Source of the DNA: Bacillota bacterium
Lineage (GTDB): Bacteria > Bacillota > Limnochordia > Limnochordales > DUMU01
Direction of reading: 5' to 3'
Assembly: GCA_012839805.1 (NCBI GenBank)
Contig: DUMU01000035.1
Location: forward strand, 169,296 to 233,295
DNA length: 64,000 bases
Below are positions 50,910-58,407 of this stretch, in pieces. Positions within the stretch are counted from its first letter, which is position 1. Every line of letters starts with the position of its first letter. The position numbers and the translations under genes are program-made. A model generated the notes under the pieces. It searched no databases, was not told the DNA's origin, and saw nothing but the letters and a program-made list of their open reading frames with translations.

Positions 50910-51158
50910 GTGAGGCCGGGTGGGCAAGGGGGGCCGGGCCTGGAGGGAATACGCTACAGTGCACTAGGAATCAGCCTCGTCCTGACCGCGCTCATCTATC
51001 TGGGGGCCGGAATCTGGGGTGGCCTCTATCTCGACCGTCGCTACGGGACAGAGCCGGCGTTTCTCTTGCTCGGGCTGGGCTTTGGATTGGCGGCCAGCCT
51101 GGGGAGCCTTTATCTGCAGGGTCGGGCCGTATGGCGCCGGGGGAGGTCACGCCGATGA
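50910..51158 (+). CDS. atpZ: AtpZ/AtpI-type small membrane protein
   Basis: An 82-residue protein with two membrane helices (LGISLVLTALIYLGAGIWGGL and PAFLLLGLGFGLAASLGSLYL) and a short basic tail. AtpZ-like proteins sit at the head of ATP synthase operons and are thought to help assembly or ion transport; their exact role is not settled. The GTG start at 50910 lies in a G-rich leader. It overlaps the next gene by 4 nt. Confidence 0.75.
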   Translation: MRPGGQGGPGLEGIRYSALGISLVLTALIYLGAGIWGGLYLDRRYGTEPAFLLLGLGFGLAASLGSLYLQGRAVWRRGRSRR

Positions 51159-51574
51159 GCGGGGAGCCGGGCCGGACCCCGGAAGCTGCCAGGCTCGGGG
51201 ACACCCCGCGCCGGCCTGGTCCGGGAGCGGATCCTGTACTGGTGGTCATGGTCGTTCTCCTGGCCGTGAGCGCTGCTTTGTCGCTTGCTTTCGGCCTTGA
51301 GCGGGCGGCCGCGGGCGTGGGCGCCGGAACGCCGGTTGCCTTGGTGAACCACTGGTGGCTGGCCCGGACCCGGGGCCGGATGGAAAAGCTTTCGCTGGCC
51401 CAAGGAACGCGGCAGTTGCTGTTGACTTACTGGGGGCGGCTCGGGCTCGACCTGGTCGCGCTGCTGGTGGCGACCCGGCTCGGGGCCGAGTTCCTGATTG
51501 GGGTCTTGATAGCGCTGGTCACGGAGATGATGGCGTACGTCTGGGACCAGGCTCAGCGTTTGGGCAGGGGGTAA
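51155..51574 (+). CDS. atpI: ATP synthase subunit I
   Basis: A 139-residue protein with a disordered N-terminus (~35 residues) and about four hydrophobic stretches (VLVVMVVLLAVSAALSLAFG, then AAAGVGAGTPVALVNHWWLA, GRLGLDLVALLVATRLGAEF, LIGVLIALVTEMMAYVWDQ). AtpI is thought to help c-ring assembly. ATG 51155 has GGAGGT 7 nt upstream and overlaps atpZ; the frame is open to 51131. Confidence 0.75.
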   Translation: MSGEPGRTPEAARLGDTPRRPGPGADPVLVVMVVLLAVSAALSLAFGLERAAAGVGAGTPVALVNHWWLARTRGRMEKLSLAQGTRQLLLTYWGRLGLDLVALLVATRLGAEFLIGVLIALVTEMMAYVWDQAQRLGRG

Positions 51575-51583
51575 GACAGGGAA

Positions 51584-52270
51584 GTGCAGGAAAGGCTCGC
51601 GCACCTGCTGGAGGAAGTTCAGCCTCATACGGTGTTTCGTTTGGGCCCGGTAGAGATCACCAGCACGGTGGTGAACACCTGGGCGGCCATGGTAGTCCTC
51701 TTTGTCCTCCTGTACTTGCTCACCCGCCGCCTCAACTTCCTTCCCCGCGGGGCCCAAAACCTCCTGGAGCTACTCGTCGAGTTCATCTGGGGCCTGACCG
51801 ACCCGCTTATGGGCCGGCAGGGACGAAAGTACGTGGGCGTAGTAGGCACGTTTTTCGTCTTCATCTTGTTTTTGAACTTTGCCTGGTTCATCCCGGGAGT
51901 GATCCCGCCCACCTCGGACTTGAGCGTTACGGCCGCCCTGGCCGTCACTTCGATACTATCGGTTCAGGTGATTGCCATCCGGGAACACGGTTTTCGCAAG
52001 TACGCAGGGCGCTTCTTCAAACCATTTCCGCCGATGGTAATCATGAACGTCATTGAACAGCTCGTACGCCCGTTCTCGCTGGCTCTCCGTCTTTTTGGCA
52101 ACCTCTTCGGGGAAGAGCTGGTAGTGGGGGCGTTTTTTGCCATGATCCCCCTTTTCGTCCCGGTGCCCATCATGATGCTGGGTTTGATTTTTGGCTTCGT
52201 TCAAGCTCTCGTTTTTACCGCCTTGACGGCAACGTATCTGGCAGAGGCTGTGGAAGAGGGAGAAGACTGA
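51584..52270 (+). CDS. atpB: ATP synthase Fo subunit a
   Basis: A 228-residue membrane protein. The essential Arg of the half-channels is in SLALRLFGNLFGEE, with FVQALVFTALTATYL closing the helix bundle. TFFVFILFLNFAWFIPG and TAALAVTSILSVQVIA are earlier helices. Subunit a carries protons to the c-ring. GTG start at 51584, 9 nt after atpI. Its c-ring partner is the unusual subunit described next. Confidence 0.95.
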   Translation: MQERLAHLLEEVQPHTVFRLGPVEITSTVVNTWAAMVVLFVLLYLLTRRLNFLPRGAQNLLELLVEFIWGLTDPLMGRQGRKYVGVVGTFFVFILFLNFAWFIPGVIPPTSDLSVTAALAVTSILSVQVIAIREHGFRKYAGRFFKPFPPMVIMNVIEQLVRPFSLALRLFGNLFGEELVVGAFFAMIPLFVPVPIMMLGLIFGFVQALVFTALTATYLAEAVEEGED

Positions 52271-52341
52271 TGTCCGGGGGACGGGCTTCCAACGGCCTGT
52301 GGGTACGGTGCTAAGGGGGGCCAGAGGGAGGTGAGGGATCG

Positions 52342-52557
52342 GTGCAGGTCTTGGCAGCAGCCCTGGTAATGGCACTGCCGGCCATGATGTCGGCCTTCGC
52401 GCAAGCGTGGACGGCCACCCACGCTATGGACGGCATGGCCCGGCAGCCGGAAGCGGCCGGAGAGATTCGCAACAGTCTCTTCCTGCCGCTCGCGTTCATG
52501 GAGGCTTTGACGCTCTTCTCGTTCGTCATTGCCTTGTTGCTCTGGCTCAAGATTTGA
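52342..52557 (+). CDS. atpE: ATP synthase Fo subunit c, atypical
   Basis: A 71-residue hairpin of two helices. The polar loop MARQPEA (residues 32-38) and the ion-binding Glu54 ([11 protein letters not shown]) are intact. Unusual is helix 1: the family's GxGxGxG packing motif is absent; aligned from the loop, those positions hold Ala, Met, Ala and Ala ([10 protein letters not shown], residues 14-23). A Gln (residue 21) lines up with the Gln of sodium-binding rings, but the residue after Glu54 is Ala rather than Ser/Thr, which argues for protons. GTG start at 52342 follows GGAGGTGAGG. Confidence 0.9.
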
Positions 52558-52675: not shown

Positions 52676-53278
52676 ATGTTACGACTCGGGCCACTGGAGG
52701 TCAACCTGTGGACCTTCCTTTTCACGGTGCTGAACGTCTCCGCCGTCATGTGGTTACTGTCGCGCTTTCTCTTCAAACCGGTAAGCGAGATCCTCGAAAG
52801 ACGTGAAAGGTCGGTCCAGGAGACCCTGGCCTCGGCGCAGCGCCGGCAGGAGGAAGCGGAGCAGCTCCTGCGCGATTACCAGGGTAAACTCGCCGATGCC
52901 GACGCGCGGGCGCAAGCCATTTTGAACAAGGCGGCCCGAGACGCCGAGCGACTCCGGGAGGAGCGGCGACAGGCGGCCGAAGCCGAAGCCGAGTCGCTGC
53001 TTTCCCGGGCTCGGAAAGAGATTGACGAGGAAAAGGAGAAGGCCATCCGGGAGCTCCGCCAGGAGGCGGTGGACCTGGCGATCCGGACTGCCTCGCGGCT
53101 CTTGAGCCGGGAGATCACCGCCCAGGACGACCATAAGTTCGTGGAGGAGTTCGTGAGCGCCTTGGCCGAAACCGGGGGTGAGACCGCCCCGGCCGGGCAG
53201 ACCGTCGGCGCCACGGCGGCGGGGTCGAGGGCGGAGAGCCAGGGAGACAGTTCGGTGAAGCGGGGGAGAGAGGCGTGA
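52676..53278 (+). CDS. atpF: ATP synthase Fo subunit b
   Basis: A 200-residue stator arm: one N-terminal membrane helix (VNLWTFLFTVLNVSAVMWLLS), then a long charged coiled coil (residues ~35-150, RRQEEAEQLLRDYQ, RARAQAILNKAARDAERL). The end is an Ala/Gly-rich tail. ATG 52676 is chosen after an AGGGGG SD; the frame is open from 52529. It overlaps atpH by 4 nt. Confidence 0.92.
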   Translation: MLRLGPLEVNLWTFLFTVLNVSAVMWLLSRFLFKPVSEILERRERSVQETLASAQRRQEEAEQLLRDYQGKLADADARAQAILNKAARDAERLREERRQAAEAEAESLLSRARKEIDEEKEKAIRELRQEAVDLAIRTASRLLSREITAQDDHKFVEEFVSALAETGGETAPAGQTVGATAAGSRAESQGDSSVKRGREA

Positions 53279-53829
53279 AGCATACCCGCGCCGCGAAGCA
53301 GTACGCCCGCGCCCTGGTGGAAGCTGCTCGGGCTCGTGGCCTTCTCGACCGTATCGAAGAGGATCTCTCCCTGTTCCGGGATACGCTGGACCTGCCGGAA
53401 TGGTCGCTTTTTCTGACCAACCCGGCTGTTCCACTGGATCAACGCTATCAAACCCTGGAGCGGGTGTTCGCACCGTACCTCGATCCGTTGACCCTATCTT
53501 TCCTGCGCGTGTTGCTTCAACACGGACGCGTGAGGCTTCTACCCGAGATCGCCGATCTTTACCGGCAATTGGCCCGGGCGGCACGGCAGGAGGTAGAAGC
53601 CGCACTCTACTCGGCCCGCCCGCTGGGGGCCGATGAGCTGGATCTGGTGCGCGGGCGGCTCGAGATGTTCACCGGCCGCCGGGTGCGCCTGCGCCCGGTG
53701 GTGGACGCATCTCTCCTCGGCGGCATCCGGGTTCAGATCGAGGACTTGATCATCGACGGAAGCCTCCGGGCTCGCCTTCGCCAGCTGGAAGAGCGGATGC
53801 TGCAGGCGGGGATAGAACGGAGTAGTTAA
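53275..53829 (+). CDS. atpH: ATP synthase F1 subunit delta
   Basis: A 184-residue subunit linking the stator to the alpha/beta ring. N-terminal helical domain (AAKQYARALVEAARARG) and the C-terminal VVDASLLGGIRVQIEDLIIDGSLRARL (in parts, GGIRVQIEDLIIDGSL) are typical. GTG start overlaps atpF by 4 nt. It is followed by atpA after 32 nt. Confidence 0.92.
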   Translation: MKHTRAAKQYARALVEAARARGLLDRIEEDLSLFRDTLDLPEWSLFLTNPAVPLDQRYQTLERVFAPYLDPLTLSFLRVLLQHGRVRLLPEIADLYRQLARAARQEVEAALYSARPLGADELDLVRGRLEMFTGRRVRLRPVVDASLLGGIRVQIEDLIIDGSLRARLRQLEERMLQAGIERSS

Positions 53830-53861: not shown

Positions 53862-55430
53862 ATGGCGATCCGGCCGGAGGAGATCAGCGCCGTCTTGCGC
53901 CGGGAGATCGAGCAATTCCGGCCTTCCCTGGAGATCGAGAATGTAGGCACGGTCATCCAGGTGGGCGATGGCATCGCGCGGGTCTACGGCCTGCGCCAGG
54001 CCATGGCCAGCGAGCTTTTGGAGTTCCCCCGGGGGCTGATGGGGATCGCGCTCAACCTGGAAGAAGATGAGATCGGAGCGATCCTTCTTGGCCCGTACGA
54101 ACACTTGAAGGAAGGCGATCAGGTCCGGCGCACCGGCCGTGTGATCGAGGTGCCGGTGGGAGAGGCGCTCATCGGGCGGGTAGTTAACCCGCTGGGTGAA
54201 CCGCTGGACGGCGGCGGGCCCATTAAAACCGACCGCCGCCGCCCGCTGGAACGGAAAGCGCCGGGGGTGGTGGAAAGGCGGGCAGTTCACCAGCCGCTGC
54301 AGACCGGTTTGAAGGCGATCGATGCCATGACTCCCATCGGGCGCGGCCAGCGGGAGCTCATCATCGGCGACCGGCAGACCGGCAAGACCGCCCTGGCGAT
54401 CGACACCATCCTCAATCAGAAGGGCGAGGATGTGATCTGTATCTACGTGGCCATCGGGCAGAAGGCGTCCACCGTGGCCGGCGTGGTGGAGGTATTGCGA
54501 GAGCACGGTGCCATGGAGTACACGATCGTGGTGGCGGCTACGGCGGCCGATCCGGCGCCGCTGCTTTACATTGCTCCGTATGCCGGCTGCGCTATGGGCG
54601 AGGAGTTCATGTTCAACGGGAAGCATGCACTGGTCGTCTATGACGACCTGACCAAGCATGCCGCCGCGTATCGTGAGGTCTCGTTGCTTTTGCGGCGACC
54701 GCCGGGGCGGGAGGCTTTCCCGGGGGACATTTTCTACCTGCATTCCCGCCTTCTGGAACGGGCTGCCAAACTCAGTGATGAATTGGGCGGCGGTTCGTTG
54801 ACCGCGCTACCCATCGTGGAAACGCAGGCGGGCGATATCTCGGCGTACATCCCGACCAACGTGATTTCCATCACCGACGGGCAGATTTACCTGGAAACCG
54901 ACCTTTTCTACGCCGGGGTGCGGCCGGCCATCAACGTGGGCCGGTCGGTTTCCCGGGTCGGCGGCGACGCTCAAGTGAAGATGATGAAGCAGGTGGCCGG
55001 GAGCCTGCGGCTCGACCTTTCCCAGTACCGGGAGCTCGCGGCTTTCGCCCAGTTCGGTTCCGAGCTGGACAAGGCGACCCAGGCCCGGCTCATCCGGGGC
55101 GAGCGGGTGGTGGAAATCCTGAAGCAAGACCAGTATGAACCGATGCCCGTGGTTGACCAGGTGATGGCGATTTTCGCCGCCGTCAACGGCTTCCTGGACG
55201 ACCTGCCGGTAGAACAGGTGCGGCCCTTCGAGAAGCAGTTCCTCGAGTACATGCACGTAAGTGAATCCGAGCTGGTCAAAGAGCTCGCGCAAAAGCAAGC
55301 CTTCGATGACCGGCTGCGGGAACGGCTGGCCGCGGCGGTGAAAGTCTTCAAAGAACGCTTCGTCCGGCAAGGGCAGGCGGCACGAGAAGCGCCGGGAGCA
55401 CCGAGTAACGGGCAGGCGAGGCGAGGGTAG
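53862..55430 (+). CDS. atpA: ATP synthase F1 subunit alpha
   Basis: A 522-residue non-catalytic alpha subunit. Walker [11 protein letters not shown] is near residue 169, followed by [13 protein letters not shown] and the alpha signature [14 protein letters not shown] near residue 350. It binds ATP and couples with beta and gamma in the ring. ATG 53862 follows GGAGGG by 8 nt. Confidence 0.97.
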
Positions 55431-55461: not shown

Positions 55462-56358
55462 ATGCCCCGTTCAACCAGGGAGATACGAAGACGGATCAAT
55501 ACGATCCGGAACACGCAGCAGATCACCCGGGCCATGGAGATGGTGTCCGTGGCCAAGCTACGCCGGGCCCAGGGCCAGGTGCTTTCGGCCCGGCCTTATG
55601 CGGACCAGCTCGGCCAGGTTCTGCGCCGGCTTCTCGCCGACCCCCGTCTTCTGCGTACCCCCGGGGTCGATCCCGTACTGGTGCACGGCCGTCCCGGACC
55701 GGTTGCCCGGCTGGTTTACGTGGTCATCACCGCCGACCGGGGGCTGGCCGGTGGCTACAACGTCAATCTGATCCGGTTTGCCATGAGCGTCCTGGATCGG
55801 GAAGAAAGGCCCTACCAGCTGATCTGCATCGGAAGAAAGGGCCGCGACTTTTTCGCGCGCCGGGGATACCCGCTGTTCGCCGAGATAACAGGGTTGAACG
55901 ACACTATCGATTTCCCGGTGGCGCACCGTCTCAGTCGCCGGCTCGTAAGCCTGCTCGAGGATGGAACGGCAGACGAGGTGAGCGTGATCTACAGCCGCTT
56001 CCTCGGGCCCGGGCGGGAGCGTCCTACCGTGGAGAAACTCCTTCCCCTGGACCGGATGGCCGGTGAGGTCACCGCCGAGGCAGCCGGTGAAACGATATAC
56101 GTTCCGTCCCGGGCTGCTCTGCTTCGCCTGTTGCTCCCGAGGATCGTCGATGCCGAGGTTTACCGTATATTGCTCGAGGCCAAAGCCAGCGAGCACGGCG
56201 CGCGGATGGCGGCCATGCACAATGCCACCGAAAACGCCGAAGAGCTGATCGATACGCTGCAGCTTTCCTACAACAAAGCCCGCCAGGCGGCCATCACCAA
56301 GGAACTGGCCGAGATTGTCGGCGGTTCCGAGGCGCTCACCCAGGGGGGCGGGCAGTAG
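55462..56358 (+). CDS. atpG: ATP synthase F1 subunit gamma
   Basis: A 298-residue central rotor shaft. N-terminal helix (REIRRRINTIRNTQQITRAM with MVSVAKLRRAQ) and C-terminal helix (ARMAAMHNATENAEELI) form the coiled coil that turns in the alpha/beta ring; VITADRGLAGGYN is the other family mark. ATG 55462. The upstream gap to atpA is 31 nt. Confidence 0.96.
   Translation: MPRSTREIRRRINTIRNTQQITRAMEMVSVAKLRRAQGQVLSARPYADQLGQVLRRLLADPRLLRTPGVDPVLVHGRPGPVARLVYVVITADRGLAGGYNVNLIRFAMSVLDREERPYQLICIGRKGRDFFARRGYPLFAEITGLNDTIDFPVAHRLSRRLVSLLEDGTADEVSVIYSRFLGPGRERPTVEKLLPLDRMAGEVTAEAAGETIYVPSRAALLRLLLPRIVDAEVYRILLEAKASEHGARMAAMHNATENAEELIDTLQLSYNKARQAAITKELAEIVGGSEALTQGGGQ

Positions 56359-56452: not shown

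Positions 56453-58407
<1,955 letters not shown>

Follow-up and report, generated by a model that had tools for sequence, protein, structure and literature searches.

The window, by which we mean the whole stretch of 64,000 nucleotides that was analysed, carries an atpE gene whose product has Met, Ala, Ala and Ala at the four places of the glycine packing motif GxGxGxG of the inner helix. We consider it probable that this is the sole and ordinary c subunit of a proton-coupled F-type ATP synthase of the Limnochordales, with an inner-helix motif that is specific for its clade. Few sequence features are known to shift the size of the c-ring, and hence the proton cost of ATP, and the inner-helix motif is among them. 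What we describe is a real, modest and clade-wide variant of a well-known part. Among open-licence papers, judged by title and the start of the abstract, none was found that describes the motif in Limnochordia.

Gene and operon

The gene and the places of interest in it are the following.

52327 to 52334, + strand: ribosome-binding site GGAGGTGA, 7 nt 5' of the atpE start (from sequence)
52342 to 52557, + strand: atpE, F-type ATP synthase c subunit of 71 amino acids with a GTG start (open reading frame; PF00137; AF2 hairpin)
52378 to 52380, + strand: codon of Pro13, present in all 20 Limnochordia proton-type c subunits that were read
52387 to 52407, + strand: codons 16 to 22, M-S-A-F-A-Q-A, replacing GxGxGxG of the inner helix packing motif (gapless alignment to 2wie and chloroplast c subunits)
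52501 to 52506, + strand: ion-binding Glu54, followed by Ala55 (alignment)

The product has the marks of an F-type c subunit. It matches the profile PF00137 (ATP-synt_C) over residues 4 to 67 (1.8e-14; 54.1 bits against a cut-off of 24), and is predicted by AF2 to form as a monomer a two-helix hairpin (pLDDT 92.2, helices at residues 2-34 and 47-69). It has the RQP loop and a membrane carboxylate in helix 2, and R34, Q35, P36 and E54 are invariant across 34 c-subunit sequences. In the gapless alignment with solved c subunits, GPGLGQG of 2wie stands opposite MSAFAQA, which gives M16-x-A18-x-A20-x-A22 (codons ATG GCC GCG GCG) where GxGxGxG is usual, although not universal, in PF00137. The residue numbers are those of Bacillus pseudofirmus, with which they coincidentally are identical. 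The sequence-only reading had held that the glycine motif is absent, with Ala or Met at the aligned places, and that Glu54 is kept with a Gln at the sodium-ring Gln place and Ala after the Glu, and the alignment bears out both, the latter residues being Q21, E54 and A55. What stands in place of the glycines resembles AxAxAxA. The outer helix also contains Pro49 (codon 49, 52486-52488), five residues ahead of Glu54, which occurs only in the window and in the same-genus MAG Bu89 (two of the 20 Limnochordia rows) and is not at the position of the alkaliphile Pro51.

In comparison with Bu89, atpE has a dN of 0.136 and a dS of 1.17, and the gene looks to be under purifying selection. Because of this low ratio, and because the loss of Gly16 is common to all 20 proton-type c subunits of the class that were read, the motif is more than a chance feature of one sequence. 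The genome from which the window comes (G000, 96.4% complete) gave one match to PF00137, which is this atpE. Another c gene in use would have spoken against the reading of the motif, and neither a second c gene nor a V/A-type ring was found in the genome by that profile.

The rest of the operon is given below, with Pfam matches in brackets.

50910 to 51158, + strand: AtpZ-like gene (PF09527 ATPase_gene1, 2.5e-09)
51131 to 51574, + strand: atpI-like gene (PF03899, 5e-07)
51584 to 52270, + strand: atpB, a subunit (PF00119, 1.2e-43), with the essential Arg present and Glu at Arg+8
52676 to 53278, + strand: atpF, b subunit (PF00430, 1.6e-28)
53275 to 53829, + strand: atpH, delta subunit (PF00213, 8.7e-42)
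53862 to 55430, + strand: atpA, alpha subunit (PF00006, 4.6e-84)
55462 to 56358, + strand: atpG, gamma subunit (PF00231, 5.4e-90)
56456 to 57895, + strand: atpD, beta subunit (PF00006, 6.4e-74)
57892 to 58407, + strand: atpC, epsilon subunit (PF02823, 1.8e-25)

By Pfam the order is AtpZ-like, AtpI-like, a, c, b, delta, alpha, gamma, beta and epsilon, that of an intact F-type operon. The start of atpF is uncertain and is either the ATG at 52676 or the upstream TTG at 52529; the PF00430 match starts at residue 62 of the long open reading frame. An N-type ATPase is encoded by an additional atp operon beside an F/A-type one, whereas the gene in the window is the sole c gene found and stands in a standard F operon with a delta subunit.

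Distribution among relatives

The c subunits were read from 79 loci of a genome-contig scan, from 30 loci of a search for relatives (other matches left out) and from 20 further stretches. Twenty Limnochordia genomes have a proton-type (EALT-like) c subunit, namely all 14 that were sampled from the order and six others from the class. At position 16 these have Ala (7), Met (6), Val (5) or Thr (2) and never Gly, position 18 is Ala in all of them, position 20 is Ser (12), Gly (5) or Ala (3), and position 22 is Gly (11) or Ala (9). Pro13, Gln21, Glu54, Ala55 and Phe59 are each present in 20 of 20. All four glycines are missing in seven of the 20 (G000, G001, G006, G009, G011, G013 and G024). We also read 103 other rows, one per locus, with sodium-type and V-type c subunits included and with duplicates of the 20 genomes and the window's own copy dropped; 77 of these have Gly at 16, one has Met there (L130), and one lacks all four glycines (L066, TxAxAxS). 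Close relatives with typical glycine motifs would likewise have spoken against the reading of the motif, and the close relatives turned out to be without such motifs.

Some of the genomes and families have further features of their own. In three genomes of the order (G003, G006 and G013) there is, beside the EALT type, a second and different c subunit (L021, L116 and L029, GQGR..QQPDAS..ES/ETTA), which by its kind might belong to an additional Na+- or N-type ATPase. The genome of the window is without one. Family f4 (L078, L115, L119, L121 and L123) has GGDM after the essential Arg of the a subunit, where most other rows have GE[EK], and its alpha subunits nevertheless fall inside the Limnochordia clade.

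The phylum was surveyed over 398 genomes with sequence patterns, which give a rough rate only. A pattern with Ala, Gly, Ser, Cys or Trp at 18, 20 and 22 was found in 295 of the 398 genomes, chance matches included, and a pattern with only Ala or TCN-encoded Ser at these places in nine. The latter came from 10 places, of which seven read as c subunits and three are chance matches (one in G135 and two in G431). Six of the seven c subunits lack Gly16 as well (G000, G001, G142, G257, G413 and G432), while G196 has it. The count is a lower bound, as AGY-encoded Ser is missed (for example in G006, which is sampled and glycine-free) and the pattern also is blind to residues other than Ala and Ser at 18, 20 and 22. 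On these counts, glycine-free c subunits are uncommon, yet they occur in several families.

The respiratory genes vary within the order. Heme-copper oxidase subunit I (COX1) was not found in G000, G001 and G002, the three sampled members of the window's family, and has two to five matches in each of the 11 other sampled genomes of the order. Three MAGs of the family DUMU01, which is probably the family of the window, are reported to be without heme-copper oxidase and to look fermentative (PMC11456536). Cytochrome bd was not found in G000 and one is present in G001; G000 has a complex I gene cluster (L155). We rejected the idea that the glycine-free state is tied to loss of the respiratory oxidase, which is absent in 2 of the 7 glycine-free and in 4 of the 13 other Limnochordia genomes (Fisher p = 1), so that over the 20 genomes there is no association.

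Evolution of the motif

A quick tree was made of 82 alpha subunits (87 were found and five duplicates dropped). A branch with an SH-aLRT of 99 separates the 18 Limnochordia rows from all others, and Gly16 is present in none of these 18, whereas it is present in 20 of 20 rows of the Moorella-type clade. On the whole tree, the state with no glycine at all (seven rows, L066 among them) requires four changes, and well-supported branches force at least three of these. Because of this pattern, Gly16 was most likely lost a single time and early, before the Limnochordia proton-type operons diverged, and the other glycines were most likely lost later in several lineages, one of which is the window's genus.

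The most likely course of events is then as follows. In the ancestral proton-type operon of the Limnochordia, Gly16 would have been replaced once, by what is now Ala, Met, Val or Thr, together with the appearance of Pro at 13. In some lineages, including the window's genus, the glycines at 20 and 22 would later have become Ala or Ser, and this would have given the MxAxAxA of the window.

Ring size

By analogy with established c-ring biochemistry, bulkier residues at 16, 18, 20 and 22 may keep neighbouring inner helices further apart, and the ring would then be wider, with probably about 13 or more subunits and a higher number of H+ per ATP. A ring of about 13 or more subunits is plausible since the position that matters most is occupied by a bulky residue, and since published Ala/Gly mutants and rings point in that direction. 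In B. pseudofirmus OF4, AxAxAxA is reported to give c13, A16G to give both c12 and c13, and A16G/A20G to give c12 (PMC4453477, PMC2914638). An N-type ATPase with AxGxAxAxG has a c17 ring, a size that the authors relate to the motif (PMC5376962), and a review states that smaller residues go with closer packing and smaller rings (PMC7003800). No characterised precedent for Met at 16 was found.

The rule does not extend freely between families. The c subunits of Spirulina and of chloroplasts have all four glycines although their rings are large, c15 in Spirulina (PMC2914638) and c14 in chloroplasts by chain counts (196 chains in 14 entries). As full-glycine rings reach c14-c15, the glycine motif by itself does not fix the ring size across families. 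In a Foldseek search with the monomer model of the window the best matches were 2wie, 6fkf and 6tqj, and the model fits rings of differing size about equally well (TMq 0.88 for 2x2v, which is c13, 0.86 for 6n2d, 0.83 for 6fkf and 0.82 for 2wie), so the fit of the predicted monomer carries no information on ring size.

It is conceivable, if unlikely, that packing is instead set by other residues, such as Pro13 and bulky side chains, and that the glycine places have relaxed to small or medium-sized residues in a ring of ordinary size. Positions 16 (M, A, V or T), 20 (A, S or G) and 22 (A or G) do vary among closely related genera while 13, 18 and 21 are fixed, and the missing link between the glycine-free state and loss of the heme-copper oxidase fits such a relaxation. 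On the other hand, residue volume at the motif places, and at 16 above all, is reported to go with ring size elsewhere (PMC4453477, PMC5376962), and none of the 20 genomes has Gly16. A step in the opposite direction, which we regard as quite doubtful, would be that the Limnochordia rings without Gly16 and with a fixed Pro13 have 14-17 subunits in place of the usual 9-13, with a high H+/ATP ratio. This would enable the window's family, for which no heme-copper oxidase was found, to synthesise ATP when the proton gradient is very low, or to use the enzyme as an efficient ATP-driven proton pump. To return to the wider ring of about 13 or more subunits, the series of Limnochordia proton-type c subunits that were read, in which Gly16 always is replaced by Ala, Met, Val or Thr and the number of glycines runs from zero to two, is a natural test of whether residue volume at 16, 20 and 22 sets the size of the ring.

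External pH

The sequence-only reading had also suggested that the operating pH may differ, and this part found no support. In this view the Ala-rich motif would, like AxAxAxA of alkaliphilic Bacillus, be an adaptation that serves ATP synthesis when the external pH is high. It has in its favour that A18, A20 and A22 agree with 16AxAxAxA22 of B. pseudofirmus OF4 and that cultivated relatives are described as tolerating pH up to 9.0-9.5 (PMC11456536), but we find it very improbable. Ala is present at three of the four places only, with Met at 16. Neither Pro51 nor Val21 is there, A51 and Q21 being found in 20 of 20. Where an alkaliphile a subunit has Lys180 (Arg+8), the window has Glu, and none of 55 a-subunit rows, duplicates included, has Lys. 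MnhB was searched for in the window's genome and was not found. The MAG Bu05, whose c subunit has MxAxGxG (L078), is given as conspecific with Carboxydochorda subterranea (AAI 97.13%), which grows between pH 6.5 and 9.0 and best at 7.0-7.5, and Geochorda grows between 6.0 and 9.5 and best at 7.5-8.0 (all as reported in PMC11456536). A MAG of Dethiobacter alkaliphilus (L072) has the full motif GGGG. We therefore rejected alkaliphily, on the grounds of the residues Pro51, Val21 and Lys180, of MnhB and of how relatives grow. Since the conspecific of the glycine-poor Bu05 prefers near-neutral pH and the D. alkaliphilus MAG is full-glycine, motif and high-pH life are here uncoupled in both directions, and an alanine-type motif alone is not a sign of high-pH life. 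The locus L072 contains two c-subunit open reading frames, both GGGG, at about 4.9 kb and about 6.8 kb in the locus and about 1.9 kb apart.

Coupling ion

Coupling to protons is likely, as judged from the residues around the site, and Glu54 would be the proton-binding residue, close to Gln21 in the inner helix. Proton use had been called the more likely alternative before, and it gains support from A55, where sodium-type rows have Ser or Thr, and from the solved rings closest in sequence, which are the proton rings of Spirulina and chloroplasts. More precisely, the window has Ala55 and Phe59 where sodium-type rows of the class have Thr or Ser and Tyr. The Gln at the place of position 21 belongs to the Na+ site in sodium rings. 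The window thus has the helix 1 Gln and helix 2 Glu of a Na+-coupled ring, Q21 and E54, and lacks the Ser or Thr after the Glu. A sodium-coupled ring is hardly credible even though Gln21 and Glu54 stand at the places of two Na+ ligands and a helix 1 Gln or Glu is followed by ETT or EST in c subunits from other families of the class, as A55 is not Ser or Thr and F59 not Tyr in 20 of 20, and the proton rings of Spirulina and chloroplasts have Q and EALT as well.

The class Limnochordia seems to be split between two kinds of ATP synthase. Fourteen loci (L006-L015, L017, L019, L020 and L022, in families f7, f8, f9, f11 and f15) have Gln or Glu in helix 1 with ETT or EST in helix 2, the signature of sodium rings, and full glycine motifs.

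Comparison with known systems

The c subunits of Moorella and related Clostridia have the same outer-helix sequence as the window, Q21 and as a rule A18, at 51-68% identity. They are mostly GxAxGxG, with Gly16 in 20 of 20 tree rows and mostly Gly20 and Gly22, glycines that the window is without, and the Pro13 of the window occurs among them only in L036 and L040.

The c13 ring of B. pseudofirmus OF4 (2x2v; 16AxAxAxA22, 51PxxExxP57) shares with the window A18, A20 and A22, a motif free of Gly, Glu54 and the hairpin. The window differs from it by having M16 where that ring has Ala and Q21 where it has V21, and by lacking P51 and the Lys180 of the a subunit; the identity is 32%, and the window has no sign of alkaliphily.

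Spirulina platensis (2wie) and chloroplast (4mjn, 6tqj) c subunits are the highest-scoring solved sequences and the best fold matches, with 48% identity. They share with the window the RQPEA loop, the Gln at the place of Q21 and FMEALT, but have kept the four glycines and have Tyr where the window has F59. The N-type c17 ring has, as reported in PMC5376962, inner-helix glycines that partly are Ala, as in the window. Its operon is of another kind, while that of the window is a standard F-type operon with a delta subunit.
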